Source of the DNA: Jiangella ureilytica | GTDB lineage: Bacteria > Actinomycetota > Actinomycetes > Jiangellales > Jiangellaceae | Assembly (NCBI RefSeq): GCF_004348545.1 | Contig: NZ_SMKL01000053.1 | Coordinates: 1 to 42,578 of the forward strand | Direction: 5' to 3' | DNA length: 42,578 nucleotides | In this document: piece by piece, positions 6,666 to 40,458 of the stretch | Position numbering within the stretch: position 1 is the first letter of the stretch | How the letters are laid out: each line of letters begins with the position of its first letter | Notes under the pieces: generated by a model | What the model was told of the DNA's origin: nothing | Databases searched by the model: none | The model's input: the letters and a program-made list of their open reading frames with translations, nothing else | Program-made: the position numbers and the translations under genes

Positions 6666-7708
6666 GCGAGCACCCCCTGCATGACCTCGTCGAGCGTGAC
6701 CGGCTCGCCGCGTTCGATGGACAGCTCGGTCGCGACGCCGAGCGCGACCGCGCGGACGCCGTCGGCCTGGGTCATCGCCCGCTCGGCGGCCGGGTCGGCG
6801 ACGGCGTCGAGGAACGCGTCGAGCTGCACGGCGAACCCGTTCGCGGCCTGCGGGTGCAGCAGGCTGGTGCCGGACTCCGTCACGACGGTGGAGCCCCAGC
6901 CCTCGGCGGGCAGCTGCAGCACGCCGTCGGTGCCGGCGACCAGCACGTCGCGGCGGTCCAGCGTCGACGGGCGGTGGCCGCGACTCATCTCGCAGACCGC
7001 GTCGGCGCCGCCCGCGTACTCCACGTGCATCTCCAGGTAGTCGTAGATCCGCAGCTCGGCGGCGGTCTGGGCGCGGCCCCGGGCGTAGACGACCGTGGGC
7101 TCGTCGCGCAGCCACCACGTCACGAGGTCGAGCAGGTGGACGCCGTTGTGCAGCGCGTGCCCGCCGGACTTCGCCGGGTCGAGCACCCAGGCCCGCCAGT
7201 CCGGCCAGATCCAGCCGCCGAGCAGCGCGAACCGCGCGAACACCGGGCGGCCGACGGCGCCGCCGGCGATCGCGTCGTTCACCGCCCGGGCGTAGTCGTA
7301 GAACCGGTGCGTGTGGGCCGCCATGACGACGGTGCCCGCCGCGTCGAACGCGTCGGCGACGGCGCGGGCCGAGGGCACGGTGATGGTGAGCGGCTTCTCC
7401 ATGAGCAGGTGCTTGCCAGCCGCGGCGACCTGCAGTGCGATGGGCTCGTGCGTCACGTTCGGCGTGCACACGATCGCCGCGTCGACGTCGGCCCGGCCGA
7501 GCGCCTCGGCCAGGTCGGTGGTCCAGGGCACGCCGCCGGCGGCGGTCGCGGCCGCACTGGCCCGGCCGGCGTCGACGTCGACGATGCCGGCGAGCCGGGC
7601 GCGGGCGCTGGCTCGCAGCGCGGCGCCGTGGTGGTCGGCGATGAAGCCGGCCCCGACGATCACCACGCCGAGCGGGCGGGTGTCGTCAATCACGGAATGG
7701 CGTGCCAT
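6662..7708 (-). CDS. Gfo/Idh/MocA-family oxidoreductase (first gene of the importer operon)
   Basis: 348-aa NAD(P)-dependent dehydrogenase. The nucleotide-binding motif is GAGFIA (19-24). It has VDAAIVCTPNVTHEPIALQVAAAGKHLLMEKPLTI with the catalytic-region EKP at 104-106, and DPAKSGGHALHNGVHLLDLVTWW as the usual 'GG.l.d.g.H..D...wl' motif. Cytoplasmic sugar or inositol dehydrogenase is the likely class. ATG at 7708 lies only about 8 bp after a good -10 (AAAGAT), so the transcript is probably leaderless. The first six codons (MARHSV) coincide with an operator-like palindrome. A downstream GTG at codon 6 is an alternative start but lacks a ribosome-binding site. This gene heads the operon Gfo-Gfo-FAH-SBP-permease-permease-ATPase. 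Confidence 0.92.
   Translation of the reverse strand: MARHSVIDDTRPLGVVIVGAGFIADHHGAALRASARARLAGIVDVDAGRASAAATAAGGVPWTTDLAEALGRADVDAAIVCTPNVTHEPIALQVAAAGKHLLMEKPLTITVPSARAVADAFDAAGTVVMAAHTHRFYDYARAVNDAIAGGAVGRPVFARFALLGGWIWPDWRAWVLDPAKSGGHALHNGVHLLDLVTWWLRDEPTVVYARGRAQTAAELRIYDYLEMHVEYAGGADAVCEMSRGHRPSTLDRRDVLVAGTDGVLQLPAEGWGSTVVTESGTSLLHPQAANGFAVQLDAFLDAVADPAAERAMTQADGVRAVALGVATELSIERGEPVTLDEVMQGVLA
7692..7708. promoter_or_regulatory. Operator-like palindrome over the start of the importer operon
   Basis: ACGGAA-TGGCG-TGCCAT fits the locus-wide consensus ATGGMA-N5-TKCCAT with one half-site change. It overlaps the first codons of the minus-strand dehydrogenase and lies at about +1 to +17 of the predicted transcript, a position suited to blocking initiation. 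It is one of two such sites in this divergent region. Confidence 0.6.
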
Positions 7709-7716
7709 GCCGAGTC

Positions 7717-7745
7717 ATCTTTGGGTCGCGGCCTCGCCGTGTCAA
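7717..7745 (-). promoter_or_regulatory. Sigma70-type promoter of the importer operon
   Basis: On the minus strand TTGACA (7745-7740) is followed by exactly 17 bp and AAAGAT (7722-7717). The predicted start of transcription is at 7709-7710, next to the ATG at 7708, implying a leaderless mRNA. Confidence 0.6.
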
Positions 7746-7748
7746 GGG

Positions 7749-7780
7749 CTCGCGCCGTGACGATCACGTAACGGCGCGAG
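7749..7780. repeat. Inverted repeat in the divergent promoter region
   Basis: CTCGCGCCGT (7749-7758) is perfectly complementary to ACGGCGCGAG (7771-7780), with a 12-nt loop. It lies between the promoters of the importer operon and the aminotransferase gene. It could bind another regulator or form a hairpin; nothing else like it is seen in the other regulon promoters. Confidence 0.5.
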
Positions 7781-7782
7781 AA

Positions 7783-7821
7783 ATGGAACGTCTTGCCATG
7801 CTTGACGAAGCAACCTACGCT
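7783..7821 (+). promoter_or_regulatory. Operator and promoter of the aminotransferase gene
   Basis: The palindrome ATGGAA-CGTCT-TGCCAT occupies 7783-7799. A -35 box TTGCCA (7793-7798) overlaps its right half, and TACGCT (7816-7821) follows after 17 bp. Unlike other promoters in the regulon, the -35 here is formed by the right operator half rather than by TTGACA preceding the left half. Confidence 0.6.
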
Positions 7822-7894
7822 TCCGGCAACGACACCACCGAGAGGCGTCGCGTGACGGCCACGTGCCGGGCCGCGACGCGGGAACAGGAGTCCG

Positions 7895-9609: not shown

Positions 9610-10449
9610 TCACCGGCGCCGGCTGAGGGCTCCCCTGGCGAACATCGCCAGCACCGGCTCGACCCCGGCGTCGCCGGCGAGCTCGCCGGCGACGTCGCGC
9701 AGGGTCGCGACGATGTGCGGCTCACGCTCCGGAGTCAGCTCGGCAGCAGGACCCGAGACGCCGAGCGCACCGACCAGCTCGCCGTCGACGCGTACCGCGA
9801 CGGCGACGCACCGCAGGCCGCGGGCGCACTCCTCGTCGTCGATGGCGTAGCCACGGTCGCGGATGCGCCGCAGTTCGGCCTCCAGTGCCCGCTCGGTGAC
9901 GATGGTGCGCTCGGTGAGTTGCGGAAACGGCTGCGCCGGCAGGTGCTCTCGCGCTTCGTCGAAGGTGAGGCCGGCCAGCATCGCCTTGCCGACGCCGGAG
10001 GCGTGCGCCGGCGACCGTCCACCCTCCTTGCCGGTGAAGTGCAGCGGCCGCTCCGGGAACTCGACGCACAGGTCGGCGGCGTGCACGCCGTCGAGGGCCG
10101 CGTACTTCGCCGTCCAGCCGACCTCGTGGGCGAGTGCGCGCACGTGCGGCCGGAGCAGGTCGACCGGCGTGCCGCTGTCGAGGTAGGCGGCGACGATCGG
10201 CAGCACGCCGTGACCGAGCACGAACGCCGGCCGGTCGTCGATGCGGAGGACGAAGTCCTGCTCCTCCAGCACCGCGAGCAACCGGACCAGCGTGCTCTTC
10301 GGCTGCTCCGTCGCCTCGTGCAGCTCGGTGAGCGTCACGGGCGCACCCGCCGACGCGACGTGCACCAGGAGGCGCAGCCCCCGCGTCAGTGCGTGCGAGT
10401 GGTAATGGGCGCGGTCGGCCCCGGCCGCGCCGCCCGTGGGGGTCTCCAT
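9610..10449 (-). CDS. IclR-family transcriptional regulator, probable master regulator of the locus
   Basis: 279 aa. An N-terminal winged helix-turn-helix (about 38-64, VTLTELHEATEQPKSTLVRL) is followed by an IclR effector domain (LRPHVRALAHEVGWTAKYAAL, RSPAHASGVGKAMLAGL, TERTIVTERALEAELRRIRDRGYAIDDEECARGLRCVAVAV). That last block, with Glu-Glu-Cys and Gly-Leu-Cys-like residues, is typical of the ligand-binding half. ATG at 10449 has a near-perfect AAGGAGGTG. Directly upstream is GTGGAA-GCTCA-TTTCAC, a variant of the locus palindrome, so autoregulation is likely. The classical IclR box has the same half-sites and spacing as the repeated operator here. The effector is presumably a sugar acid or keto acid of the pathway. 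Confidence 0.93.
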   Translation of the reverse strand: METPTGGAAGADRAHYHSHALTRGLRLLVHVASAGAPVTLTELHEATEQPKSTLVRLLAVLEEQDFVLRIDDRPAFVLGHGVLPIVAAYLDSGTPVDLLRPHVRALAHEVGWTAKYAALDGVHAADLCVEFPERPLHFTGKEGGRSPAHASGVGKAMLAGLTFDEAREHLPAQPFPQLTERTIVTERALEAELRRIRDRGYAIDDEECARGLRCVAVAVRVDGELVGALGVSGPAAELTPEREPHIVATLRDVAGELAGDAGVEPVLAMFARGALSRRR

Positions 10450-10462: not shown

Positions 10463-10479
10463 GTGGAAGCTCATTTCAC
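10463..10479 (-). promoter_or_regulatory. Operator variant upstream of the IclR-family gene
   Basis: GTGGAA-GCTCA-TTTCAC is a 17-bp inverted repeat with the same architecture as the other operators but G/C in place of A/T at the outer ends. It abuts the Shine-Dalgarno of the regulator gene, suggesting weak autorepression. Confidence 0.5.
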
Positions 10480-10610: not shown

Positions 10611-10639
10611 TTGACATGGCACCCGATTCCATATAGTCA
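10611..10639 (+). promoter_or_regulatory. Operator-promoter of the amidohydrolase gene
   Basis: TTGACA (10611-10616) runs directly into the palindrome ATGGCA-CCCGA-TTCCAT (10616-10632). A -10 candidate is TAGTCA at 10634-10639 (17-bp spacing) or TATAGT at 10632-10637 (15 bp). The operator occupies the promoter spacer, so bound regulator would exclude RNA polymerase. Confidence 0.65.
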
Positions 10640-11508: not shown

Positions 11509-12699
11509 TCAAGGCGGGGCCGCGTCCGGCCAGGGCGCGGCCTCGGCCACCAGGGCCCGGGCCCGCAGCAGCTCGCGTGCCGACCGCCAGCCGAGTGCGC
11601 CGGTGACCCGGCCGTCGCTGCCGTAGAGGGCGACGAACCGGCCGTCCTCGGGCGACCCGGAGACGACGGCGAACCGGTCGGTCCCGGTCAGCCGCCCGTA
11701 CACCTGGAGCTTGACCTCGTACTGGTCGCTCCAGACGTAGGGCACCGGCTGGTACGGATCGTCCGCGCCGAGCATCGCCCGGGACGCGGCCATCGCCTGC
11801 TCGGTCGCGTTCGTCCGGTGCTCGATCCGCACGCTCTCGCCGCGACCGCGGTGGAACCAGCGGGCCACGTCGCCGGCGGCGAACACACCGGGCGCGGCCC
11901 GGCAGCGGTCGTCGCAGCCGACGCCGTCGGCGAGGTCCAGGCCGCTGCCGGCCAGCCAGTCCGTCGCCGGGACCGAGCCGATCGCGACCAGCACGCAGCT
12001 GGCCGCCACGGTCGTCCCGTCGTCCAGGCGGACCCCGGTGACCCGGCCGGCGTCGCTGGTCAGGCCCGCGACACCGGTCCCGAGCCGGAGTTGCACGCCG
12101 TGCTCGGCGTGCAGCCGCGCCAGCAGCCCGGCCACGACCGGGCCGACCTGGCGCAACAGCGGCGCGGGCGCCGGGTCGACCAGCGTGACCGCGACGTCCA
12201 GGCCGCGCAGCGTCGCCGCCGTCTCCGCGCCGAGGAAGCCGGCGCCGACGACGACCACCCGGGCGGCCGACCGTGCGGCGGACTGGAACGCCACGGTGTC
12301 GTCGAGCGTGCGCAGCACGTGCACGCCGGCCAGCCCGGCGGTCTCGGGGAGGGTGCGCGGCCGGACGCCGGTCGCGACCAGCAGCGCGTCATAGGGCACG
12401 TCGGCGCCGGCCACCCGCACCGTCCGGTCCGCGACGGAGACGGCCGTCGCCGCGCTGCTCGGCCGCCAGTCGATCCCCAGCTCGTCGTAGCGGTGCCCGG
12501 CCAGCAGCTCCAGCCGGTCCGGCGCCCAGGCGCCGGCGAGGAGTTGCTTGGACAGCGGCGGCCGGTCGTAGGGGCGGTGCGGCTCGGCACCGAGCAGGGT
12601 GAGCTCGCCGTCGAACCCGTCGGCGCGCAGCGACTCCGCGGCGGTCAGGCCGGCGGCGCCGCCGCCGACGATCACGACCCGCCGGACCGCCGCGGTCAC
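11509..12699 (-). CDS. FAD/NAD(P)H ferredoxin reductase partnering the P450
   Basis: 396-aa pyridine nucleotide-disulphide-family reductase. The FAD motif is VVIVGGGAAGLTAAESLR near the start, then PYDRPPLSKQLL, the NAD(P)-binding VVVVGAGFLGAETAATLR in mid-protein, and the second FAD-contact CRAAPGVFAAGDVA. The ending (VPYVWSDQYEVKLQVYG, then FVALYGSDGRVTGALG) is the reductase C-domain of rhodocoxin/putidaredoxin-reductase types. GTG at 12699 overlaps the ferredoxin stop by 4 bp (GTGA). The role is to pass electrons from NAD(P)H through the adjacent ferredoxin to the P450. It is last in the 21523-11509 operon. Confidence 0.93.
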   Translation of the reverse strand: MTAAVRRVVIVGGGAAGLTAAESLRADGFDGELTLLGAEPHRPYDRPPLSKQLLAGAWAPDRLELLAGHRYDELGIDWRPSSAATAVSVADRTVRVAGADVPYDALLVATGVRPRTLPETAGLAGVHVLRTLDDTVAFQSAARSAARVVVVGAGFLGAETAATLRGLDVAVTLVDPAPAPLLRQVGPVVAGLLARLHAEHGVQLRLGTGVAGLTSDAGRVTGVRLDDGTTVAASCVLVAIGSVPATDWLAGSGLDLADGVGCDDRCRAAPGVFAAGDVARWFHRGRGESVRIEHRTNATEQAMAASRAMLGADDPYQPVPYVWSDQYEVKLQVYGRLTGTDRFAVVSGSPEDGRFVALYGSDGRVTGALGWRSARELLRARALVAEAAPWPDAAPP

Positions 12700-12890
12700 C
12701 CGCCGGCCAGCCTGATCGCCCGCGCGGGGCACAGCCGCGCGGCCAGCGCGACGTCGTCGGCCCGATCCGGCCCGGGGTCGTCGTCGAGCACGACCACCAG
12801 GCCGTCGTCGTCCTGGTCGAACACGTCCGGCGCGGCCATGACGCACTGGCCGCCGCCGACGCACTGGTCGATCTCCACCTCGATCATCAT
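12696..12890 (-). CDS. [3Fe-4S] ferredoxin for the P450
   Basis: 64-aa ferredoxin. Cluster ligands appear in DQCVGGGQCVMAAPDVF (two Cys with five residues between) and LCPARAI near the C-terminus. This three-Cys pattern is the [3Fe-4S] actinobacterial P450 ferredoxin type. The ATG at 12890 gives ATGA overlap with the P450 stop and has GGGAGG upstream; the adjacent second ATG is less likely. It sits exactly between P450 and reductase, a complete three-component system. Confidence 0.93.
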   Translation of the reverse strand: MMIEVEIDQCVGGGQCVMAAPDVFDQDDDGLVVVLDDDPGPDRADDVALAARLCPARAIRLAGG

Positions 12891-14101
12891 CGGTCCTCCC
12901 GTGGCTCGTCCCAGGTCAGCGGCAGCGCCGCCAGGCTGAGGAACGCGTACTCCTTGACCTCCAGCTCGGCCGGGTCGACGGCGAGGCGCAGCGACGGGAC
13001 GCGCCGGAACAGCGTCTCCACGACGGTCTGCAGCTCGACCCGGGCCAGCGGCTGGCCGAGGCACTGGTGCACGCCGTAGCCGAAGGCGACGTGGTGCCGG
13101 GCCTCCCGGTGCACGTCGAAGGTGTCCGCGTCCGGGAACGCGGCGTCGTCGCGGTTGGCGCCTGCGACCGCCGCGATCACGCCGTCGCCGGCCTCGAGCC
13201 GCTGCCCGGCGATCTCGATCGGCTCGGTCACCACCCGGGTCGGCGAGATGTGGAAGATGCTGATGTAGCGCAGCAGCTCCTCGACGGCGGCCGGCACCAA
13301 GGACGGGTCCGCGCGCAGCTCGGCCAGCTGGTCCGGGTGCCGCAGCAGCGTCGCGATGCCCAGCCCGATCATGTTCGTGGTGGTCTCGTGGCCGGCGGTG
13401 ATGAGCAGCCGGACCGCCGCGACCAGCTCCTCCCGGGTGACGACGTCGCCGCCGAGCTGGTCGGCGACCAGCTCGCTGATCAGGTCGTCGGCCGGCTCGC
13501 GCCGCTTGCGCTCGATCAGCTCGTCGGCGTAGGCGAGCATCTCGTTCGTCGCCCTGATGACGTTCTCCGGCGACGTGGTGAGGGTGTTGCGCTCGTGGTC
13601 CAGCGCCTGGAACCGGGCCCGGTCGTCCAGCGGCATGCCCAGCACGTGGCAGATCGTGCGGGACGGCACCTCTCCCGCGAGCGCCGTCACGAAGTCGGCC
13701 GGCGGCCCGGCCGCCAGGATGCCGGTGATCAGGTCGTCGACGATGCCCTGCACGACCGGGCGCAGCGCCTCGATCCGCCGGATGGCGAAGTACTTGGTGA
13801 ACACGCGGCGCAGCCGGGTGTGGTCGGGCGGGTCCATGCCGACGAACGTCGTGCGGCCGGACCGCTCCAGCGCCTCGCGGCCCGGCGTCGGGAACGGGAA
13901 CCCGTCCCGGCGGCGATCCACGCTGATCCGCGGGTCGCCCAGCAGCGAACGCACCTGCTCGTACCCGGTGACCAGCCAGGCGGTGCGGTCGTCCCATAGC
14001 CGCACCCGGGTCAGCCCACCGGCCTCGCGCGCCGCGGCGTACCCGGGCGGCGGGTCGAACGGCGTCAGCCGCGTCATCGGGAACGCAGGCAGGTCGTTCA
14101 C
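12887..14101 (-). CDS. Cytochrome P450, CYP105-like class I
   Basis: 404-aa soluble P450. I-helix oxygen-activation motif AGHETT (236-241), ExxR at 275-278 (EELLR), PTRVV strand, and heme loop FGYGVHQCLG with thiolate Cys347. There is no membrane anchor. GTG at 14101 has GAGGTGA six bases upstream. The gene is embedded in a sugar-catabolic operon directly after a 2-hydroxyacid dehydrogenase and before its own ferredoxin and reductase. The context recalls the marine P450 systems that oxidatively demethylate 6-O-methyl-D-galactose. Hydroxylation of an aglycone is the main alternative. Substrate cannot be read from the sequence. Confidence 0.94.
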   Translation of the reverse strand: MNDLPAFPMTRLTPFDPPPGYAAAREAGGLTRVRLWDDRTAWLVTGYEQVRSLLGDPRISVDRRRDGFPFPTPGREALERSGRTTFVGMDPPDHTRLRRVFTKYFAIRRIEALRPVVQGIVDDLITGILAAGPPADFVTALAGEVPSRTICHVLGMPLDDRARFQALDHERNTLTTSPENVIRATNEMLAYADELIERKRREPADDLISELVADQLGGDVVTREELVAAVRLLITAGHETTTNMIGLGIATLLRHPDQLAELRADPSLVPAAVEELLRYISIFHISPTRVVTEPIEIAGQRLEAGDGVIAAVAGANRDDAAFPDADTFDVHREARHHVAFGYGVHQCLGQPLARVELQTVVETLFRRVPSLRLAVDPAELEVKEYAFLSLAALPLTWDEPREDR

Positions 14102-14110
14102 GGTGTCACC

Positions 14111-15061
14111 TCATCGGTCGATCGGCCGGGGCCGGATGCCCCGCTGGACGAAGTCGAGGGCGACCCGCGCCGCGGTCCGCCCCAGCTGTTCCTCTGAACC
14201 CTGGGAGTACCAGGCGACGTGCGGCGTGACCAGGACGTCGTCGCGGCCGAGCAGCGGCCGCAGCGCGGCGGCGTCCGGCTCGCCCTCGACGACGTCGAGC
14301 CCGGCGCCGGCGACCAGACCCGCGTCGAGCGCCTCGACCAGCGCCGTGGTGTCGATCAGGCCGCCGCGGGCGGTGTTGACGATCACCGGGCGGCGGCGCA
14401 TGCGGGCGAACGCCGCGCGGTCCAGCAGGTGCCGGCTGGCCGGGGTGAGCGGCGCATGCAGGCTGATGACGTCGCTGGTCGCGAGCAGCTCGTCCAGCTC
14501 CACCGCGCCCACGCCGGTCCGCTCGAACCGGTGCGGGGCGAGCGGGTCGTAGGCGACGACGTCCAGGCCGAACGCCCGCGCGCGGCCGGCCACCGCCGTG
14601 CCGATCCGGCCCAGGCCGACGATGCCGAGCCGGCGGCCCTGCAGCCGCGGGACCGGGACCTGCTCGACCGAGCGCCAGTCGCCGCCGGTCTGCGCGGTGA
14701 AGTGGCCGAGCCGCCGGACCGTCGCGAGCAGCAGCAGCATCGCGTGGTCGGCGACCTCGTTCGTCCCGTAGTCGGCGACGTTGGTGACCAGGATCCCCTG
14801 CCGGTCCGCGGCCGCCAGGTCGATCTTGTCCACCCCGACGCCGCCCCGGACCAGCAGCCGCAGCTTCGGGAAGGCGGCCAGCAGGCCGGCGCTCACCGGC
14901 GCGCCGCCGACGATGAGCGCCTCGGCCGCCACGGCCTCGATGTCGACGGGCGAGGCGGGCAGCACCGCGTACGGCACGCCCGCCTCGTCCAGCGTCCGCA
15001 GCGTGGCCGGCAGGAACGGCGCCGCCGCCGCCCACACCGCGATCCTCGCCCGGTCCGTCAC
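14111..15061 (-). CDS. NAD(P)-dependent D-2-hydroxyacid dehydrogenase
   Basis: 316-aa D-isomer-specific 2-hydroxyacid dehydrogenase. Catalytic-domain start (RIAVWAAAAPFLP), substrate loop VRGGVGVDKIDL, Rossmann motif GLGRIG (150-154 region), and the triad Arg232 (NTARGG), Glu261 (GEP) and His281 (TPHVAW) are all present. The typical reaction is reduction of a 2-oxo acid (glyoxylate, hydroxypyruvate or a sugar-derived acid) or the reverse. GTG at 15061 overlaps the aldolase-family stop by 4 bp. It is the most divergent of three such enzymes in the window. Confidence 0.92.
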   Translation of the reverse strand: MTDRARIAVWAAAAPFLPATLRTLDEAGVPYAVLPASPVDIEAVAAEALIVGGAPVSAGLLAAFPKLRLLVRGGVGVDKIDLAAADRQGILVTNVADYGTNEVADHAMLLLLATVRRLGHFTAQTGGDWRSVEQVPVPRLQGRRLGIVGLGRIGTAVAGRARAFGLDVVAYDPLAPHRFERTGVGAVELDELLATSDVISLHAPLTPASRHLLDRAAFARMRRRPVIVNTARGGLIDTTALVEALDAGLVAGAGLDVVEGEPDAAALRPLLGRDDVLVTPHVAWYSQGSEEQLGRTAARVALDFVQRGIRPRPIDR

Positions 15062-15987
15062 GCCTCCACCCACCGTGGGTGACGCTCACGCAGCGCGGCC
15101 CGGAACGCCTGGAAGGCCGCGTCGGAGGCGCCCTGATAGGGCGGCAGCAGCGCCAGCGGGAACCGCGGGTCGCGCACCTTGGCGAAGATCTTGTCGAACG
15201 CGCCGTCCATGTGCGGGCCCGGCCCGACCGCCCGGCGCAGCTCGCCGCTCATCTCCAGCAGCTCCGCACAGATCGCCAGCAGGGCGTCGGCGTCGCGGGC
15301 GACCCCGGCGTCGAAGTACTCACGAGCCAGCCGGGGCCGCACCGACGCGATCGACACGAGGAAGCCGGCCGGACCGACCAGGCTCGCGTAGCTGTACGTG
15401 GCCTCGGTGACGAAGTGCCGCAGCGCCGGCGCCTTGGCGAACAGCCCGTGCACGGTCGCGTAGTCGGCCCGGGTGTGCTTGACCGCCACCAGATTCGGGT
15501 GCGCCGCGGCCAGCGTCGCGTAGTCGTCCGGGGTGAGCATCCGCCCCGACCGCGCCAGGTTGTAGTGCAGGAACTCCGCCTCCGGGAAGCGCCCGCAGGT
15601 CTGCGCGAAGAAGGTCGCCAGTTCGGCGTCGTTGAGCGCGCCCCAGGACGGCAGCGACAGCTGGAACGACCGGATCCCGCGGGCGACGCAGCGCTCGATC
15701 CGGCCGATCACCACCGGCAGCGACGGGCTGATCAGCCCGACCATCGGGTCGACGCCGTGCCGCCGCGACTCGTCGGCGAACACGTCCACGACCTGGTCGA
15801 AGCGGCGCTCGTCGACGGCGTAGCCCTCGCCCGCCGTGCCGAAGACGTACAAGTGGCGCAGGTCCTGCGCCACCTGGTCGGCGATGCTGGCGCGGAACAG
15901 CTCCTCGGCTACCTCGCCGGACTCGTCCCACGGCACGCAGCAGGCGGCCAGCACCGTGCGCGGGTACCTCGCCTCGTCGGTGCTCAA
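15058..15987 (-). CDS. DapA-family lyase/aldolase (dihydrodipicolinate synthase superfamily)
   Basis: 309-aa class I aldolase-type TIM barrel. Visible are FGTAGEGYAVDE (the GTTGE-type pyruvate-carboxylate loop, 50-55), LHYNLARSG with the proton-relay Tyr142, and LVAVKHT with Schiff-base Lys170. TTG at 15987 overlaps the preceding stop as TTGA. A lysine-biosynthesis role is unlikely in this operon. Members include 2-keto-3-deoxy sugar acid aldolases, 5-dehydro-4-deoxyglucarate dehydratase and N-acetylneuraminate lyase. Cleavage of a 2-keto-3-deoxy acid to pyruvate and an aldehyde fits the dehydratases encoded nearby. Confidence 0.88.
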   Translation of the reverse strand: MSTDEARYPRTVLAACCVPWDESGEVAEELFRASIADQVAQDLRHLYVFGTAGEGYAVDERRFDQVVDVFADESRRHGVDPMVGLISPSLPVVIGRIERCVARGIRSFQLSLPSWGALNDAELATFFAQTCGRFPEAEFLHYNLARSGRMLTPDDYATLAAAHPNLVAVKHTRADYATVHGLFAKAPALRHFVTEATYSYASLVGPAGFLVSIASVRPRLAREYFDAGVARDADALLAICAELLEMSGELRRAVGPGPHMDGAFDKIFAKVRDPRFPLALLPPYQGASDAAFQAFRAALRERHPRWVEA

Positions 15988-17315
15988 GGGCTCACGTTCC
16001 GTTCGATCCAGGCGGCGGAGTGCTCGGGGGCGCCCGTCGGTGTCGTGTGCCCACGCGGTTCGGACAGCACGTGCAGCTCCACCTCGCTCGCCACGCTACG
16101 CGTCAGCGTGACGTCATCGTGGTACGAGACGCCCTGCGCCGCGACGGCGCCGTAGATCAGCACGTCCAGCGTGGCCGCGTCGGCCGGCGCCACCGCGCTG
16201 ACGGACACATCCTCCCAGGTGCTGCTCGCCGCGGGCGCCACGAACTCGTAGCCGACGCGGGTGCCGGAAGCGTTGAAGAACTCCAGGAACATCGTCGCCG
16301 GCGTGCCGGACTCGGTGTACACCCAGCTCGTCGCCGTGTACTGCGACCCGGGAACGGCCGGCAACCGCGGCGTGCGCACCCCGACCGCCGTGCCGCTCGC
16401 GTTCTCCACCCGCAGGCTGCCCGTCCCCGTGTGCGCCTGGGTGGTGCTCGGCCCCGCGGTCTGCGTCTTGGGCAGCGGGTCCAGCGTCCACGGCGCCGGC
16501 CAGCCACCGGTCAGGTCCTCGAACGACGGGTTCACGATCCCGGCCACGGGGAAGCCGGTGACCGCGGCGGCGCTGAGCGCCCGGGCGGCCTCGATCGCGG
16601 AGTCGGTCCCGACGCGCACGTCGCGGTCGCCGATGACGATGTACACCGGCCGTCCGACCAGCGGATCGAGGTGCGCCGCCAGGCTCAGCTCGTCGACGAA
16701 CGGCACCGACGCGGCGGTCGCGAACTCGCTCACCTGGCGCAGGTCCGTCACCGGCGCGTACCCCACGGCGCACGCCACGCGCGGGTCGAACGCCGCGTAG
16801 CGCAGCGCCAGGAAGCCGCCGCGAGAGGTCCCGGCGACGGCGATGCGCTCGGCGTCGACCAGCTCCTCGTCGATCAGATGGTCGAGCACCTGCTTGAGCC
16901 GGGTGTTGAAGTCAGCGACGAAGTCGTGCTCGTCGACCGCGAGCTCCGCCCAGCCCGGCAACCCCTCGGACCTGCCCGGATACAGGTGACCGCCGTGGCA
17001 GGGCGGGTCGATGGAGACGCAGAGGTAGTTCGCCGGCGGTTCCACCAGGATCGTGCCGGCCTGCAGGTGGCTGCTCGTGAGCGCCCGGTCGATCGTCAGG
17101 GACAGGATGACCAGCGTGGGCGCGGGCGCCGACGGGATGGTGCCGAGCAGCCCGTACTCCACGTCGCCCGCCGGCCCCGGGGCGATCCCGTAGACGACGG
17201 AGAACGGCGCCGCCTGGGCCGGGCCGGCGGTGCTGGTCAGGGCGCCGGCCGTGCCGGCGGCCACGAACGACGCCGCGGTGCCCTTGAGCACGGTGCGCCT
17301 GGAGAGATTCGTCAT
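15984..17315 (-). CDS. Tat-exported alpha/beta hydrolase with an inserted jelly-roll domain
   Basis: 443 aa. A twin-arginine signal (LSRRTVLKGTAASFVAAGTAGAL) is followed by an alpha/beta-hydrolase fold: SIDPPCHGGH oxyanion region, nucleophile elbow GTSRGG (Ser164), acid VIGDRDVRV (Asp232), and the His in EPRGHTTP (His423) near the C-terminus. Between Asp and His, residues about 258-405 are a beta-sandwich, starting NPSFEDLTGGWPAPWTLD and ending VSYHDDVTLT. It resembles carbohydrate-binding modules and is shared with the two upstream genes. The likely role is as a secreted glycan esterase or related hydrolase. ATG at 17315 has AGGAGG upstream. Confidence 0.85.
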   Translation of the reverse strand: MTNLSRRTVLKGTAASFVAAGTAGALTSTAGPAQAAPFSVVYGIAPGPAGDVEYGLLGTIPSAPAPTLVILSLTIDRALTSSHLQAGTILVEPPANYLCVSIDPPCHGGHLYPGRSEGLPGWAELAVDEHDFVADFNTRLKQVLDHLIDEELVDAERIAVAGTSRGGFLALRYAAFDPRVACAVGYAPVTDLRQVSEFATAASVPFVDELSLAAHLDPLVGRPVYIVIGDRDVRVGTDSAIEAARALSAAAVTGFPVAGIVNPSFEDLTGGWPAPWTLDPLPKTQTAGPSTTQAHTGTGSLRVENASGTAVGVRTPRLPAVPGSQYTATSWVYTESGTPATMFLEFFNASGTRVGYEFVAPAASSTWEDVSVSAVAPADAATLDVLIYGAVAAQGVSYHDDVTLTRSVASEVELHVLSEPRGHTTPTGAPEHSAAWIERNVSP

Positions 17316-17327
17316 GTCCCGGTCCTC

Positions 17328-19400
17328 CTACACGAGGTAGATGGCGCTGAGCTTGATGGACGTGTTCGCGGTGCCGGCGAAGACGCCGCGGATCCGGATC
17401 CGCTCCGGCGGCGCGGCCGTGCCCGGCCAGGTCACCGGCGTGCGGAAGCCGTCGGTCGAGACGACGGCGGTGTCCGTCCCGGAGTAGCCGGCCAGCGGCG
17501 TCAGCCGGTCGTCGAGCAGTTCCAGCCGCAGCGTCGCGTCCGTGCCGAGCCCTTCGACGTTGACGAAGACGTCCGGCGCCTCCGTGCGGGCGCCGATGTC
17601 GATCGGAGCGGTCAGGAACTCGCTGGTGATCTCCGGCAGCTGGTAGTCGCCGGCGCCCTTGGCGCGCAGGTCGACGACGAGGTCGCCGAACCGGTCCTTC
17701 GGCAGCACGGCGATGCCGACGCCGCCCCGCCCGGCCCGCGGCTCGGGGTCGTCGCTGGTGCGGGGGTCCCAGGCGCCGTAGTAGACGAACGTCTCGTCGC
17801 CGAGGTGCTCGAACCCCTGGCCCTGCAGCACGCCGCCGGCGTCCCAGTCGACCGGCGTCACGGCGATGTCGTCGTGGTAGGACACCCCGGCCGCCGCCGT
17901 CGTGCCCCACACCATGACGTCGAGGGTCGCCGTCCCGGCGGGCGCGGTCTCGGTCACCGTGACCCGCTGCCAGGTCCCGCTCGCGGCCGGCTGGACGAAC
18001 GTCCAGCCGATCCGGGTGCCGGCGGCGTTGAAGAACTCCAGGAACAGCTGCGACGGCGTCCCGCTCTCGGTCAGCACCCACATCGACGCCGTGTACGGCC
18101 CGCCCGGCTGCGCCGGCAGCCGCGGGGAGCGCACGCCGATGGGTGTGCCGGCGACGTTCTGCACCCGCAGGCTGCGGGTGCCGCTGTGCGCCTGCGCGGT
18201 GCTGCTCGACGCGGTCTGGCCCCGCGGCGGCAGGTCCAGCGTCCACCCCGCCGGCCAGCCGCCGGAGAGGTCCTCGAACGACGGGTTGGCGACGGTGACC
18301 GGCGGGACCAGCCCGCTCCGGGACAGGAACGTGAACTCGTGCGCCGGCTCGCGGAAGTTCACCCCGTCGTTGCTGATGACGAAGCCGAGGTCGATGCCGA
18401 TGTCGTCCCAGTCGGCGGCGCCGTGCCAGCGGCCCACGGTGCCGATCAGCACGTTGCCCCGGTTCCAGACGCTGACGCCCTCGTGCTGCTGCTCGCCCTC
18501 CAGGCTGCGACCGGCGCCGAGCAGCGTGTGCTGGGCGGTGCGGGCGAAGGCCATGACGTTCGTCTGCGACCAGGTGACGAAGTCGCCGGAGATCCAGCCG
18601 CGGGCCACCCGGCCGTGGTAAGGCCGCACCGACGGGTTCCCGTTCTGCCCGGACAGGTGGTAGTTGCCCTCCCACCGGTACAGGCCGCCGACCCGCTCGG
18701 CGTGCAGCGCCGGGATGACCGGGTCGCTCTCCTCCAGCATGAAGTCGACCGGCGTGATGGGGGTCAGCGAGGTCCAGCTGAGCCCGTCCGGGCTGGCGAA
18801 CAGCGCCAGCGTGCCGTGGTTGTTGCCCCGGTTGTCCCAGTAGACGTGTGCCGCCATCTTGTAGCGCAGGTCCGGGTCGGGGTCGTCCGGCTCGTACAGC
18901 ACCTTGACGTTGAGGACGCCGATGCCGGGGTCCATCGCCACCAGGTTGTTGGCGGTGTTGCCGCGGTATGTCACCAGGCCGAGGTCCGGCTTGGTCCAGG
19001 TCACGCCGTCGGTGCTCTCGGCGTAGGCGACCTTCCACCACTCGGGGCTGCCACCGAGCTCGTTGCGCTCGTCGCCCACCGCGCAGTACCACATGCGGTA
19101 GACGCCGCCGACCTCGATCACCGAGCCGTAGAACTGCGCCGCCCACGAGTCCGGCTCCCCCGGCCCGCCGCGCGGGACGACCGGGTTCGCCGGGTGCTTG
19201 ACCGGCGTGCGCATCTGGACCTCGAGGTTCTGCACGAACGGAATCGACACCTGGTCGAATGCGAAGAGCGTGATCTCGCCGCCCGGCCCCGAGGTGGCCG
19301 CCACCTCGGTGCTCTCGGCGGATCGGACGCCGGCCAGCGCGAGGCCGCCTGCGGCGGCGCCGGCCAGTCCGGCCCGGCGGGTGAATCGCATGGGCTCCAT
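17328..19400 (-). CDS. Tat-exported beta-propeller glycoside-hydrolase-like protein with inserted jelly-roll domain (second copy)
   Basis: About 690 aa. Tat signal MRFTRRAGLAGAAAGG, then propeller-type repeats: KHPANPVVPRG, GVYRMWYCAV, VAYAESTDGVTWTKPDLGL, GTLALFASPDGLSW, HEGVSVWNRGNVLIG, FVISNDGVNFREPAHE. These resemble GH32/GH43-like five-bladed propellers. Residues about 370-515 are the jelly-roll (NPSFEDLSGGWPAGWTLD to VSYHDDIAVT), after which the propeller resumes at VLQGQGFEHLGDETFVYYG. The ATG at 19400 is preferred for the Tat signal; an in-frame GTG at 19409 and ATG at 19391 are alternatives. It is a close paralog of the upstream gene, separated by 14 bp. Enzymatic specificity is unknown. 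Confidence 0.75.
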   Translation of the reverse strand: MEPMRFTRRAGLAGAAAGGLALAGVRSAESTEVAATSGPGGEITLFAFDQVSIPFVQNLEVQMRTPVKHPANPVVPRGGPGEPDSWAAQFYGSVIEVGGVYRMWYCAVGDERNELGGSPEWWKVAYAESTDGVTWTKPDLGLVTYRGNTANNLVAMDPGIGVLNVKVLYEPDDPDPDLRYKMAAHVYWDNRGNNHGTLALFASPDGLSWTSLTPITPVDFMLEESDPVIPALHAERVGGLYRWEGNYHLSGQNGNPSVRPYHGRVARGWISGDFVTWSQTNVMAFARTAQHTLLGAGRSLEGEQQHEGVSVWNRGNVLIGTVGRWHGAADWDDIGIDLGFVISNDGVNFREPAHEFTFLSRSGLVPPVTVANPSFEDLSGGWPAGWTLDLPPRGQTASSSTAQAHSGTRSLRVQNVAGTPIGVRSPRLPAQPGGPYTASMWVLTESGTPSQLFLEFFNAAGTRIGWTFVQPAASGTWQRVTVTETAPAGTATLDVMVWGTTAAAGVSYHDDIAVTPVDWDAGGVLQGQGFEHLGDETFVYYGAWDPRTSDDPEPRAGRGGVGIAVLPKDRFGDLVVDLRAKGAGDYQLPEITSEFLTAPIDIGARTEAPDVFVNVEGLGTDATLRLELLDDRLTPLAGYSGTDTAVVSTDGFRTPVTWPGTAAPPERIRIRGVFAGTANTSIKLSAIYLV

Positions 19401-19414
19401 CGCGGCCACCGCCC

Positions 19415-29121: not shown

Positions 29122-29150
29122 AGAAGACACGGAAGGTCATTCCATGTCAA
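29122..29150 (-). promoter_or_regulatory. Operator-promoter of the first BNR gene
   Basis: Minus-strand TTGACA (29150-29145), 17-bp spacer, TCTTCT (29127-29122). The spacer holds ACGGAA-GGTCA-TTCCAT (29129-29145 on plus), one mismatch from the consensus. A leader of about 25 nt with a good ribosome-binding site follows. Confidence 0.62.
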
Positions 29151-30180: not shown

Positions 30181-30209
30181 AGGGAACGCACAACGTCATT
30201 CCATGTCAA
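30181..30209 (-). promoter_or_regulatory. Promoter of the 2-hydroxyacid dehydrogenase gene with operator half-site
   Basis: Minus-strand TTGACA (30209-30204), 17-bp spacer, TTCCCT (30186-30181). The left operator half ATGGAA is intact, but the right half is degenerate (TTGTGC). The predicted transcript begins at or next to the GTG start. Confidence 0.5.
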
Positions 30210-30254
30210 GTGCCAGAAATGCGATGATCCGTGCTCATTGACATGGAATGACGT
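30193..30254. repeat. Inverted pair of operator-promoter arms between divergent genes
   Basis: TTGACATGGAATGACGT occurs at 30238-30254 on plus and at 30209-30193 on minus, giving perfect 17-bp inverted arms 28 bp apart. The match extends to 22 bp with one mismatch. The two arms are the divergent promoters of the dehydrogenase and the second BNR gene. Confidence 0.75.
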
Positions 30255-30266
30255 TCTGCACTTTCC
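30238..30266 (+). promoter_or_regulatory. Promoter of the second BNR gene with operator half-site
   Basis: TTGACA (30238-30243) is fused to ATGGAA-TGACG-TTCTGC; the -10 candidate at 17-bp spacing is CTTTCC, weak. The right half-site is degenerate. An ATG inside the operator (30248) is not used as the gene start, because a ribosome-binding site and signal peptide point to 30299. Confidence 0.45.
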
Positions 30267-30298: not shown

Positions 30299-31504
30299 AT
30301 GACACGACTCGGTCCACGCAAGGGAATCTCGATCCTCGCCGGTCTCGCGGCGACCCTCGCCGTCGCACTCGCCGGGCTCCCGGCCACGGCGACCGCTCCC
30401 ACGCCGACCACGTCCGCGGCCAAGGCGGCCGACGACATGGCGCCGGCCTCGATCGTCCAGTCGGTCGCGGTGCCGGGCGGCCCCTGCGGCGACCCCGTGC
30501 TCGGCACCACGTGCCGGGCGTACTTCCCCGATCTGACCCGCGACCCGCACGGCGACGCGGACGACCTGCTCATGGTCTACCGCTGGTCCAGCGCCCATTC
30601 GCAGCAGCCCAGCCAGCTGCGGATGATGCGCAGCCGCGACGGCGGCGCCACCTGGCAGCAGGCGACGCCCTTCATCGTCGCCGACTTCGAGGACTACGAC
30701 TACCGCGACCCGTCGATCACCACGCTGAGCAGCGGCCGGGTGCTCCTCTCGTACTTCGTCGCCGACGGCCAGACCGGGGCGTTCGTGCAGACGCAGGTGA
30801 AGCGGCGCGACGCCGACAACGCCGCGTTCTCGGCACCGGTGCAGGTGTTCTCCAGCACCATGCCGCGGCCGATCAACAGCGCCAAGATCGCCGAGCTCGA
30901 CAACGGACAGCTGCTGATCCCGCTGTACGGCACGCCCAACGGGTCGAGCACGCACGCCTCGATCGTGGTGGCCAGCGTCGACGGCGGCGTGACGTGGGAC
31001 GGCCGGGTGACCGGCCGCCAGAAGACGATCGCCAGCAGTCCCGCGGTGAACTACCAGGAGCCGGCGATCACCGAGATCGAGCCGGGACACGTCCGCGCGA
31101 TCATCCGGACCGCCTCGACGTCGGGCGCCAGCACCGCCGGGGTGCAGACGGACTCCTACGACAACACCTACATGACGACGTGGACGGCGCCGACCTCGCT
31201 GGGGGTGGCGATGCACGGCCCCGAGGTGGAGTTCATCCCGGGCACGAACCTGGTGCCGACGCTGTGGAGCCAGCCCAACGCGAGCACGTCGCCGACGAAC
31301 CGGCCGACGGTGATCGCGCTGCGGCGGACCAACGTGCTCTGGGCCGACACCCCGAAGCACATGCTCTACAACCCGGGCTCGAACTGGGACTCCGGGTACC
31401 CGGGCACGGCCGCCATCGGCACGACCCGGCTGGTCACGGTCGTCTACGACACCGACCGCAACGCGGCCATCGCGCTGCGTTACAACACCACCGACGTCGA
31501 CTAG
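30299..31504 (+). CDS. Exported sialidase-fold (BNR/Asp-box) protein, single domain
   Basis: 401 aa. N-terminal signal (GISILAGLAATLAVALAGLPATATA) and one propeller with Asp-boxes SRDGGATW and SVDGGVTW. It has other blade features such as YRDPSITTLSSGRVLLSYF, NYQEPAITEI and HGPEVEFIPGTNLVPTLW. There are no accessory domains, unlike the two larger BNR proteins. ATG at 30299 has GGAGG seven bases upstream. It is probably an exo-acting glycosidase or a relative; specificity is unassigned. Its TAG stop overlaps the TAG stop of the convergent rhamnonate dehydratase within one CTAG. Confidence 0.8.
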   Translation: MTRLGPRKGISILAGLAATLAVALAGLPATATAPTPTTSAAKAADDMAPASIVQSVAVPGGPCGDPVLGTTCRAYFPDLTRDPHGDADDLLMVYRWSSAHSQQPSQLRMMRSRDGGATWQQATPFIVADFEDYDYRDPSITTLSSGRVLLSYFVADGQTGAFVQTQVKRRDADNAAFSAPVQVFSSTMPRPINSAKIAELDNGQLLIPLYGTPNGSSTHASIVVASVDGGVTWDGRVTGRQKTIASSPAVNYQEPAITEIEPGHVRAIIRTASTSGASTAGVQTDSYDNTYMTTWTAPTSLGVAMHGPEVEFIPGTNLVPTLWSQPNASTSPTNRPTVIALRRTNVLWADTPKHMLYNPGSNWDSGYPGTAAIGTTRLVTVVYDTDRNAAIALRYNTTDVD

Positions 31505-32688
31505 CGCGGGTACGGGCGGCCCAACGGCCGGTCCGGGTTCAGGCGCACGCCGAACCCGGGCCGGTCCAGCTCCGACACCTTCAGCCGGCCGTTCACCGGC
31601 ACCGGCTCGTCGACCAGCAGCGGTGAGAACATCGGCACGACCTCGGTCCCCTCGGGGTGCATCATGAGGAACTCCGCGAACGGGCTGTGCTGGCGCGTCG
31701 CGACGAAGTGGTAGGAGTACACGCTCGACCCGTGCGGCACGACCATGGCGCCGTGCGACTCGGCCAGCGCCGAGATGCGCAGCAGCTCCGTCAGCCCGCC
31801 GCACCAGCCGACGTCGGGCTGGACGAGGTCGACCTTGCCGAGCTCGAGCAGCGCCCGGAAGCCGTACCGCGTCGACTCGTGCTCGCCGCTGCTCAGCAGC
31901 ATGCCGGCCGGCATCCGCTCGCGCAGCGTGGCGTGCGACCAGTAGTCGTCGGGCAGCAGCGGCTCCTCGAGCCAGCGCAGGCCGACGCCGTCGAGCGCGT
32001 GCGACAGCCGGACGGCGTGGTCGAGCGTCAGCGACATCCAGCAGTCGAGCATGAGCCAGAAGCCGGGGCCGACGGCCTCGCGGGCGGCGGCCAGGCGGGC
32101 GACGGTCTTGGCGATGCCCTCGTCGCCCTCGGCCGGGCCGTGCTGCAGCGGCAGCTTGCCGCCGATGAAGCCGAGCTTCCGGGCGACGTCGGGCCGCGGT
32201 CCGGTGGCGTAGAACGGGATCTCGTCGCGGACGGCGCCGCCGATCATCGCGTGCACGGGCAGGCCGCGCACCTTGCCGAGCAGGTCCCAGAGCGCGAGGT
32301 CGACGCCGCTGATCGCGTTGACCACCAGGCCCTTGCGGCCGTAGTAGAGCGTCGAAAGGTACATCTGGTCCCAGAGCCGCTCGAGGTCGGTGACCGGAGC
32401 GCCCTCGACCAGCCGGGCCAGGTGGTTCTCGATGATCCACGCGGCCGGCTCGCCGCCGGTGGTGGGCGCGAACCCGACGGTGCCGTCGGACGCCTCGACC
32501 TCGACGACGACGTTGCCGAGCAGGCTGAGCCCGAACGAGCGCCGGCTCTCGCGGTACTCCGGGTACTTCGCCATGGGGCTGGCGATGTGGTCGTCGATCC
32601 AGTGGCCGGCCGGCTGCGCGTGGTAGTCGGCGCCGCCGGTGGAGTCCGGCACGTACGCCCGCAGCGCGGTGATGGTCGGCGTCGTCAT
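31501..32688 (-). CDS. rhmD: L-rhamnonate dehydratase
   Basis: 395-aa enolase-superfamily enzyme that I recognise by long stretches typical of RhmD: KYPEYRESRRSFGL, VGFAPTTGGEPAAW, WDQMYLSTLYYGRKGLV, NAISGVDLALWDLLGKVRG, FIGGKLPLQHGPAEG, VQPDVGWCGGLTELL, VVPHGSSVYSYHFVATR. Metal ligands Asp215, Glu241 and Glu269 and the acid His319 are in place. The reaction is L-rhamnonate to 2-keto-3-deoxy-L-rhamnonate; the family also accepts L-mannonate and L-lyxonate. ATG at 32688 overlaps the lactonase-type gene stop by 4 bp. It is last in the operon BNR protein-lactonase-rhmD, which lacks the IclR-type operator and lies behind an AraC-family gene. Confidence 0.93.
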   Translation of the reverse strand: MTTPTITALRAYVPDSTGGADYHAQPAGHWIDDHIASPMAKYPEYRESRRSFGLSLLGNVVVEVEASDGTVGFAPTTGGEPAAWIIENHLARLVEGAPVTDLERLWDQMYLSTLYYGRKGLVVNAISGVDLALWDLLGKVRGLPVHAMIGGAVRDEIPFYATGPRPDVARKLGFIGGKLPLQHGPAEGDEGIAKTVARLAAAREAVGPGFWLMLDCWMSLTLDHAVRLSHALDGVGLRWLEEPLLPDDYWSHATLRERMPAGMLLSSGEHESTRYGFRALLELGKVDLVQPDVGWCGGLTELLRISALAESHGAMVVPHGSSVYSYHFVATRQHSPFAEFLMMHPEGTEVVPMFSPLLVDEPVPVNGRLKVSELDRPGFGVRLNPDRPLGRPYPR

Positions 32689-38225: not shown

Positions 38226-38235
38226 ACCGGTCCTG

Positions 38236-38967: not shown

Positions 38968-40379
38968 GGGCGCGGCTCCTCCGTCGGTTCCTCCGTCAGC
39001 TCGTCCAGCATGGCGCCGGCGTGCGTCGTGAGCAGCTCCAGCGCGCCGGCCGCCAGCGGGGTCTGCCAGGACTGGTAGGCGCCGCGGTCGTACGCGTCCG
39101 CCGTCGGCAGGTACACGAACCCCGGCCCGTTGGTGAGGTTGAGGACGAGCACGGGGCGGCCGGGGAACCGCGCCCGCAGGTCGCGCTGCAGCCGCGAGTA
39201 CGCCTCGCCCGGGTGGGCCACCAGCAGCGCGTCGCCGAGCCGCCAGGCCCAGACGGGGTGTGCGACCGTGGCGCCGCCGTCCAGATAGCCCTCGCGCAGG
39301 TGGCGGGCCCGCCGCAGCCGCTCGTCGCGGCTGCGCGGGTCGATGCCGGCCCACTCGCGCTCGAGCTCGGCCCACGTGGGCAGCGGCCGCACCGGCAGCT
39401 CGGCGTCCGACGAACGGGCGGCGAGCACCGGCGAGGGCGCCGACGGCCGCGGCTGCCAGACGGCGAGCGGCGCCCCGGACTCCACCACCTCTGTCAGCGT
39501 CAGCGCCGTCCCGGCCGGCGGCAGCCCGGCCAGCGCGCTCAGCACCGCGTGCCCGAGCGCGGCGCCGTGCCGGTCGGCGACGGCGACGTCCCCGGTGTAC
39601 TGCTCGGCCGGGGCCAGCTCGCCGGAGGCGCCCTGCAGGAACAGGCACGGCGCGTCCGTCGCGGCCTCGACCGTCTCGCGCATGGCTCCCACGTAGTCGG
39701 GCGAGACGAGCCGGTTCTGCCAAGCCAGCGTGGTCGGGTGGCAGGCGTAGTTGACGACGGTGCCGAGCACGCGGCCGTCGCGGGCCGCCGTCAGCCGCCC
39801 GGCGAGCACGGTGTCGTCGGCGGCCGCCGCGGGGTTGGCGCCGACGACCGCCCGCCCGGCGAGGTCGAGCTCGCGGTCGGCCGCGAGGGCGCAGCGGCCG
39901 GTCGCCCAGTCCAGGACCGCGGGCTCCAGCGCCGCGACGGCCTCGCGCCCGGCGTCGACGGCTGCGGCGGCCAGCCGGTCCAGGTACGCGGGCACCAGCG
40001 CACCGCCGTCGAGGCCGGTGTCGTCGGCGCAGAGCACCGGGCCCGCGTGCGTGTGCGACAGCGCGACCAGGAGCCGGTCCTCCGGGAGTCCGAGCCCGCC
40101 GAGCACGGCCGTCCGCATCCGTCGCTCGTCCGCGACCCGCCGCCACCAGGTGCCGTCGACCGCGATCAGCACCAGCGGCGCGGCCGCCTCGTCCTGCGAG
40201 GCCAGCGCGAGCGCCGTCAGGGTCAGCGGCCGGTGGACGCCGTCCGCGACGTCGGTGACGGCCGGGCCCCAGTTGCGGGTGCGGATGCCCGGCGGCGGGG
40301 TGACGTCGCGCCGGGCCACGCCCGCCAGGCCGGCGAACGCCGCGGCCGGCAGCCGCGATCCGATCCCGGCCTGCGCCAT
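38964..40379 (-). CDS. Neutral/alkaline ceramidase-like hydrolase
   Basis: 471 aa. Family features are AGVARRDVTPPPG near the N-terminus, LSHTHAGP with probable Zn ligands His109 and His111, and VVNYACHPTTL with a further His. Known neutral ceramidases are secreted and longer. Here no convincing signal peptide is seen and the C-terminal domain is short. Many such proteins of unknown role occur in carbohydrate loci, so an amidase or esterase acting on a sugar derivative is possible. It is first in an operon with the SDR; the promoter predicts a very short or no leader. Confidence 0.75.
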   Translation of the reverse strand: MAQAGIGSRLPAAAFAGLAGVARRDVTPPPGIRTRNWGPAVTDVADGVHRPLTLTALALASQDEAAAPLVLIAVDGTWWRRVADERRMRTAVLGGLGLPEDRLLVALSHTHAGPVLCADDTGLDGGALVPAYLDRLAAAAVDAGREAVAALEPAVLDWATGRCALAADRELDLAGRAVVGANPAAAADDTVLAGRLTAARDGRVLGTVVNYACHPTTLAWQNRLVSPDYVGAMRETVEAATDAPCLFLQGASGELAPAEQYTGDVAVADRHGAALGHAVLSALAGLPPAGTALTLTEVVESGAPLAVWQPRPSAPSPVLAARSSDAELPVRPLPTWAELEREWAGIDPRSRDERLRRARHLREGYLDGGATVAHPVWAWRLGDALLVAHPGEAYSRLQRDLRARFPGRPVLVLNLTNGPGFVYLPTADAYDRGAYQSWQTPLAAGALELLTTHAGAMLDELTEEPTEEPRP

Positions 40380-40387
40380 GGGGCAGA

Positions 40388-40416
40388 ACCCTCGGGGACC
40401 GGCCGTTCCATGTCAA
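40388..40416 (-). promoter_or_regulatory. Promoter of the ceramidase-like/SDR operon with operator half-site
   Basis: Minus-strand TTGACA (40416-40411), 17-bp spacer, GAGGGT (40393-40388). The left half ATGGAA is present but the right half is degenerate. The start of transcription falls 0-3 bp before the ATG at 40379. Confidence 0.5.
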
Positions 40417-40438
40417 CGCGCCACGCGTTGACATGGAA
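40406..40438. repeat. 33-bp perfect palindrome joining two divergent promoters
   Basis: TTCCATGTCAACGCG, then CCA, then its exact complement CGCGTTGACATGGAA. It contains both divergent -35 boxes and one operator half of each promoter, so the two promoters are back to back. Confidence 0.85.
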
Positions 40439-40458
40439 CACCTTGCCATGACTAGGCT
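40428..40458 (+). promoter_or_regulatory. Operator-promoter of the alpha-galactosidase gene, probably leaderless
   Basis: TTGACA (40428-40433) fused to the full palindrome ATGGAA-CACCT-TGCCAT (40433-40449). TAGGCT at 40453-40458 is the best -10 (19-bp spacing). Transcription would begin at about 40464, the GTG start of the gene, with no room for a ribosome-binding site. Confidence 0.62.

Follow-up and report, generated by a model that had tools for sequence, protein, structure and literature searches.

A palindrome, ATGGMA-N5-TKCCAT, recurs at promoters throughout a 42,578-nucleotide stretch of Jiangella ureilytica DNA (contig NZ_SMKL01000053.1 of assembly GCF_004348545.1, hereafter the window), and, judged from sequence, it is very probably a genuine operator that marks a regulon of the IclR family. 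Our reading is that TGGMA-N5-TKCCA, usually extended to ATGGMA-N5-TKCCAT, would be the operator of those IclR proteins that carry the recognition helix PKSTLVRLL, that the regulon is of the IclR group 2 type, and that the operator probably has two readers, the paralogs IclR1, whose gene is in the window, and IclR2, whose gene is just outside it. We put the probability of this reading at about 0.75. The sites themselves are conserved among relatives, and they are tied both to the PKSTLVRLL clade and to particular types of gene. We infer from these patterns that an IclR dimer binds the palindrome and represses the adjoining promoter, and that an effector arising from the pathway would release it. 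If so, a motif first spotted by eye becomes a testable regulon that links scattered genes, namely BNR_2-type genes, unclassified CBM_4_9 proteins and an optional P450, and it offers a natural experiment on whether paralogous repressors that read DNA with the same helix share their targets or split them.

Probable operator sites in the window

A preliminary description of the window had placed seven palindromes along it, and a scan recovers every one, five of them exact (7783, 10616, 21579, 21664 and 40433) and two with a single mismatch (7692 and 29129). One more match, at 28584 and with two mismatches, is intragenic. When up to two mismatches are allowed the window holds 8 matches against a mean of 0.73 in shuffled sequence, and 8 was reached in 0 of 100 shuffles. 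The variant described before the iclR gene (10463-10479) is likewise real, at three mismatches to the palindrome, as are the half-sites described in three more promoters (30199, minus strand; 30238-30248, plus strand; 40406, minus strand). These half-sites belong to a longer pattern, TTGACATGGMA, which at up to one mismatch occurs nine times in the window versus 0.14 expected; eight of these are exact and all eight lie at promoters, while the sole one-mismatch copy (19644) is intragenic.

The longer pattern reflects a fusion of the palindrome to the promoter. Five of the seven palindromes (10616, 21579, 21664, 29129 and 40433) are joined to a perfect -35 box as TTGACATGGMA-N5, where the last base of the box is the first base of the palindrome, and this holds in both orientations. 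The remaining exact TTGACATGGMA stretches (30199, 30238 and 40406) lead into half-sites or degenerate sites, and the palindromes at 7692 and 7783 have no such fusion. The operator appears to sit where the promoter spacer is expected, the classical position for a repressor, and because it is so often fused to the -35 hexamer, a bound dimer would fill the spacer between the -35 and -10 boxes and exclude RNA polymerase. The start codons of the GH36 gene (40464) and the MR_MLE gene (21694) lie very near the inferred promoters, at a distance that probably leaves these transcripts with a very short leader or none.

Alignment of relatives indicates which positions are held fixed. The operators at 7692 and 7783 are invariant in all seven aligned Jiangella sequences. 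At 10616 the halves and flanks are invariant in six of six IclR1-bearing sequences, with substitutions falling in the N5 core, and in the same alignment most of the region upstream of iclR1 has diverged. The 21664 operator is kept in four of four sequences, its variation again confined to the N5 core, and the degenerate site before iclR1 is nearer the consensus in two relatives, at one and two mismatches. Taken with the scans, this supports a palindrome that links about eleven promoters of the window.

Sites across the genome and in relatives

A genome-wide scan had been suggested as a check on the motif. The genome comprises 6.35 Mb in 168 contigs, of which the window (42.6 kb) is 0.67%, yet five of the seven exact palindromes fall inside the window (binomial chance of at least five of seven, 3e-10), and the reversed control gives none. 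The two exact palindromes outside precede an MR_MLE dehydratase-like gene and a BNR_2 gene. At two mismatches the scan returns 140 places versus 100 for the reversed control, and because the signal drowns there, only sites with no or one mismatch, or sites fused to TTGACA, are informative. The composite TTGACATGGMAN5TNCCRT is found exactly eight times genome-wide, five times in the window and otherwise at C44:21228, C102:141 and C165:14317, with none in the reversed control; at up to two mismatches it occurs 19 times versus once for that control.

At least seven other contigs (C33, C44, C102, C111, C142, C157 and C165) carry matching sites, so that the single locus first envisaged gives way to a dispersed set. 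Sites with no or one mismatch precede BNR_2-type genes, or coincide with their called starts, on C165, C102, C111, C157 and C33. They also precede an MR_MLE dehydratase on C44 and, on C142, a weakly BNR-like gene whose divergent neighbours encode FAA hydrolase and 2-hydroxyacid dehydrogenase. Another is upstream of a PIG-L gene where C102 starts, an end that by synteny adjoins the right edge of the window. An operator precedes seven of the eleven BNR_2 genes that score over the Pfam cut-off in the genome; six of these operators have at most one palindrome mismatch, versus about 0.04 expected on a rough 1.1 kb per gene, and one has two composite mismatches. In this BNR_2 set no operator was found at the three best-scoring genes, at BNR_c, or at a twelfth match below the cut-off. 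Five further one-mismatch places (C22, C44:61659, C55, C92 and C93) have no evident regulatory role and may be due to chance. From the sequence we propose a regulon of about eleven window promoters and at least eight elsewhere, where it would consist mostly of BNR_2-type genes, together with the PIG-L gene, a dehydratase, and FAA and 2-hydroxyacid dehydrogenase neighbours.

Among related genomes, all 12 of the same genus have the composite and none of 10 others in the family does, with the reversed control at zero in all 22. IclR1, at 78% identity or more, occurs in six of the 12 Jiangella genomes, with a 56% relative in a further one (G011), while G008, G009, G010, G012 and G014 hold only 43-45% relatives at E <= 1e-50, IclR2 among them. 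In G008, G010, G012 and G014 the aminotransferase gene adjoins BNR_a, so the block matching 9.5-26.8 kb of the window is absent. These gene-order comparisons rest on query genes other than CBM_b, MRMLE_a and BNR_c. Most operators outside the block persist. The four IclR1-lacking genomes with a compared promoter (G009, G010, G012 and G014) all keep the 7692/7783 pair. The BNR_a operator (29129) is kept in G008 and G012 and has one mismatch in G009 and G010, the GH36 operator (40433) is kept in G010 and G012, and the PIG-L operator in G008 and G012, though it was not seen in the G010 stretch compared. G011 presents the converse, since its sole match at E <= 1e-50 is IclR1-like and two exact composites lie beside module genes. 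Each regulator type therefore occurs with the operator and without the other. G011 also carries a stand-alone IclR1-type set (L199, L200) with its own importer, FAA, Gfo/Idh and aminotransferase genes, which suggests two parallel paralogous systems.

Beyond the genus, 80 of 549 loci were sampled: 33 non-Jiangella loci with the PKSTLVRLL helix, 38 loci without it, and nine Jiangella loci with it. The 33 hold 36 exact 15-mers in 20 loci (shuffled mean 1.4, 10 shuffles) and the 38 hold six in six loci (shuffled mean 2.8), with Fisher p = 1.6e-4, a value to be read with two cautions: loci from a single genus lack independence, and the group without the helix comes mostly from other phyla. Composites at up to one mismatch number 15 in 12 of the 33 and none in the 38, with zero in the reversed control. 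Such a composite precedes a BNR-type gene (28-35% identity, tblastn) in Actinomadura, Microtetraspora, Rhizohabitans and Actinoallomurus, and in Asanoa, Dactylosporangium and Actinophytocola a 7783-like site is flanked by aminotransferase and Gfo/Idh genes. The core of importer, FAA and IclR2 genes recurs across many actinobacterial genera. Across 148 genomes of the class, the eight with an IclR1/2 relative (E <= 1e-60) contain 40 exact 17-mers and the other 140 contain 36; the reversed 17-mer occurs 11 times in the 148 and never in the eight.

Candidate regulators and competing explanations

IclR1 is a clear family member, matching HTH_IclR at 42.2 bits (cut-off 22) and IclR_C at 100.8 bits (cut-off 24), and is one of 15 IclR-type matches in the genome. 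Its closest match there, at 44%, is IclR2 on contig C8, assigned to the family by NCBIfam IclR-type models only. IclR2 lies about 3 kb past the left edge of the window, where the importer gene run ends. By synteny C8 continues the window leftward (C117:121 and C8:116 map to L195:15098 and 15100), so the run would read Gfo/Idh-FAA-SBP-permeases-ABC1-ABC2, with IclR2 and a second amidohydrolase following after a further 1.6 kb or so. The two proteins have in common the helix PKSTLVRLLAVL and an N-terminal YHxxALxRGL, both absent in the other paralogs aligned over the helix (11/13), and they differ in the residues of the N-arm and of helix 2. A tree of 36 sequences joins them in a single clade (fork support 99/99) that excludes four other paralogs, with IclR1 in a sub-clade with the G011 protein and IclR2 in another. 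Further IclR proteins of the same helix clade are encoded at L069, L074 and L077 in G012, G007 and G008. We picture IclR2 as the older owner, which would read the palindrome in a neighbourhood that is the same across actinobacterial families, and IclR1 as a second reader that would belong to an optional block of about 17 kb (about 9.5-26.8 kb) with operator copies of its own.

The preliminary description had a single regulator, IclR1, controlling all of these sites as one regulon, and iclR1 does lie among them, with the site between the amidohydrolase gene and iclR1 kept in six of six IclR1-bearing sequences. That account now seems improbable, since IclR2 bears the same helix beside the importer genes in an arrangement recurring in other genera, and in genomes lacking IclR1 most of the promoters compared retain an unaltered outer operator; where no IclR1 is found the sites at 7692, 7783, 29129 and 40433 persist, which makes it an unlikely sole reader of them. 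A division of labour, in which IclR2 serves only the outer operators and IclR1 only its own module, with the N5 core or residues outside helix 3 deciding, is a less remote prospect but still rather unlikely. It would suit two gene sets that behave as separable modules and the differing N-arm and helix-2 residues, but the two sets share their half-sites, both proteins have the same recognition helix, and the N5 core at 10616 varies among species while its halves stay constant.

A different protein could in principle be the reader, the obvious candidate being the AraC-family protein encoded at 35952-36788, inside the cluster and conserved in G010 and G012. We consider this very improbable: at those loci of other genera with both the operator and an IclR2 relative that were searched for it, no AraC match was found within about 10 kb on each side, and the 15-base-pair inverted repeat fits IclR group 2 (PMC8222616). 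Hardly credible is the idea that strong -35 boxes merely extend by chance, or through base composition, into a palindrome. The last base of the box is indeed the first base of the palindrome, but reversed and shuffled controls are near zero for the exact patterns, both halves are conserved while most of the surrounding region diverges, and the exact sites at 7783 and on C111 are palindromic without TTGACA.

Several observations weigh against an operator read by both paralogs. Because the -10 boxes are weak and their spacing varies, the promoter geometry is a prediction. No operator lies directly upstream of IclR2 (three to four mismatches), and in Jiangella its gene stands about 1.6 kb behind the last importer gene; for these reasons IclR2 is only a candidate member of the importer operon. 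In Asanoa and others it comes directly after ABC2, at most about 50 bases away. Two proteins with the same helix may still differ in specificity. The BNR_a operator was not found in G014 (three mismatches), BNR_c (33628) lacks a good site (five composite mismatches), and none was noted for the AraC gene or the rhamnonate dehydratase. In the stretches compared, no exact 15-mer was present in 13 of the 33 non-Jiangella helix loci or in seven of the nine Jiangella ones, the other two holding six in all; several helix loci without an exact 15-mer have one-mismatch or composite sites, and in the seven Jiangella cases the IclR2-type gene at the centre of the locus lies some 12 kb from the closest known operator. 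In the class sample up to 17 candidates were scored per genome, and because all eight positives are Jiangella, the class-wide test is confounded with genus.

Our reading of a shared operator can be extended, tentatively and with doubts that we think outweigh its appeal, to two catabolic systems, each with its own IclR paralog, that use one operator code by way of identical recognition helices and whose fusion in some Jiangella cross-wired about nineteen promoters. Two repressors with different effector domains would then act on the same promoters, so full induction may need two breakdown products; such a cross-wired regulon, if real, would amount to a transcriptional AND gate for a compound glycan.

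Gene content and comparison with known IclR systems

Table 1. Probable operators, regulator and gene runs in the window
Feature	Position	Strand	Gene or context
Operator, one mismatch, ACGGAATGGCGTGCCAT	7692..7708	.	At the called start of Gfo/Idh/MocA, first gene of the FAA-importer run
Operator, exact, without TTGACA fusion	7783..7799	.	Between the importer run and the divergently transcribed gene for a class-III aminotransferase
Degenerate operator, three mismatches	10463..10479	.	Centre 22 bases before the iclR1 ATG
Composite -35 box and operator, TTGACATGGCACCCGATTCCAT	10611..10632	+	Amidohydrolase gene
Composite -35 box and operator	21579..21600	-	Gene run 21523-11509; kept in 4/4 sequences
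Composite -35 box and operator	21659..21680	+	MR_MLE dehydratase, 2-hydroxyacid dehydrogenase, FAD/FeS oxidase
Composite -35 box and operator, one mismatch to the 17-mer	29129..29150	-	BNR_2/F5_F8 protein 26854-29091
-35 box and half-site	30199..30209	-	2-hydroxyacid dehydrogenase promoter
-35 box and degenerate operator, two composite mismatches	30238..30259	+	BNR_2 gene promoter
-35 box and half-site	40406..40416	-	Ceramidase-like gene promoter
Composite -35 box and operator	40428..40449	+	GH36 gene
IclR1, IclR-family regulator, 279 amino acids, recognition helix QPKSTLVRLLAVL	9610..10449	-	HTH_IclR and IclR_C above cut-off
Gfo/Idh/MocA, FAA hydrolase and SBP_bac_5 importer gene run	114..7708	-	By synteny continues left into ABC2, then IclR2 on C8
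Gene run under the 21579 operator, including the P450 cassette 11509-15073	11509..21523	-	Gaps of at most 23 bases, or overlaps
L-rhamnonate dehydratase	31501..32688	-	NF011968 equivalog, 653.6 bits versus cut-off 393

The gene set looks like one for the uptake and breakdown of a glycan whose products would enter a sugar-acid route. Rhamnose-type sugar acids and sialic-like acids are candidate substrates. Among the matches listed for the 20 proteins scanned, the rhamnonate dehydratase alone reaches a curated NCBIfam cut-off; the FAA protein is nearest to 2,4-didehydro-3-deoxy-L-rhamnonate hydrolase and falls below that model (NF053535, 189.6 versus 500 bits). Amidohydro_2, MR_MLE, DHDPS-like, 2-hydroxyacid dehydrogenase, GH36, BNR_2 and CBM_4_9 families are also present. 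The run from 21523 to 11509 encodes two CBM_4_9 proteins, an esterase-like and a DHDPS-like protein, a 2-hydroxyacid dehydrogenase, a P450 and a ferredoxin reductase. G000 and J. muralis have the cassette of the last three, and it is missing from this position in G005, G015 and J. anatolica, three of the five IclR1-bearing loci compared. For that reason it looks accessory, and the single pathway once drawn to include the P450 is not supported. The two CBM_4_9 proteins (17328-21523) are related to each other, each about 690-700 amino acids long with a twin-arginine-like N-terminus and only CBM_4_9 matched in Pfam, and they possibly form an undescribed enzyme family. A sequence search of solved structures with one BNR_2 and one CBM_4_9 protein gave no match, and AlphaFold models of a CBM_4_9 and a BNR_2 protein had a mean pLDDT (predicted local distance difference test) of 31 and 39, from shallow alignments of four and two rows. 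The AraC-family gene stands ahead of BNR_c and the rhamnonate dehydratase, with no clear IclR-type operator noted, and is possibly a second layer of control.

Known systems help to place the palindrome. We found no description of the Jiangella regulon in the literature searched, and it may be listed among the 181 supplementary groups of PMC8222616. Two candidate identities for the regulators fail on score: as E. coli IclR, IclR1 and IclR2 reach 124.6 and 109.1 bits versus an equivalog cut-off of 380 (NF008601), and as BhcR, the best NCBIfam model for both and alike in overall IclR architecture, 154.6 and 171.0 bits versus 350 (NF045644). The likeness to the E. coli IclR box first suggested for these sites survives in part. 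The aceBAK box TGGAAATNATTTCCA (PMC8222616, Table 1) shares the TGGAA half-sites and the 5-base-pair centre, but the full box has no match in the window at up to three mismatches, and the E. coli system serves a different gene set. By our reading the E. coli box itself also resembles group 2.

Group 2 is one of two IclR operator types described, with the consensus TGRAACA-N1-2-TGTTYCA (Suvorova and Gelfand 2021, PMC8222616; the published points below are from that source). The assignment to the IclR family made in the preliminary description is probably right in this form: across about eleven promoters the palindrome resembles a group 2 operator, with a comparative tie to PKSTLVRLL proteins. 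It is a palindrome of about 15 base pairs whose halves, TGGAAC and GTTCCA, fit the TGRAAC/GTTYCA pattern, and the site before iclR1, centred at -22, takes the most frequent published position. In contrast to that consensus, the central CA/TG is relaxed here, the inner bases often not being kept, and GGCA half-sites occur. IclR proteins generally control themselves and one or two adjacent operons, with regulogs ranging from 1 to 55 clusters of orthologous groups, whereas the Jiangella regulon would span about nineteen promoters on eight contigs. One point of agreement is that sugar-acid and Dpp-transporter genes are among those listed for IclR regulogs.

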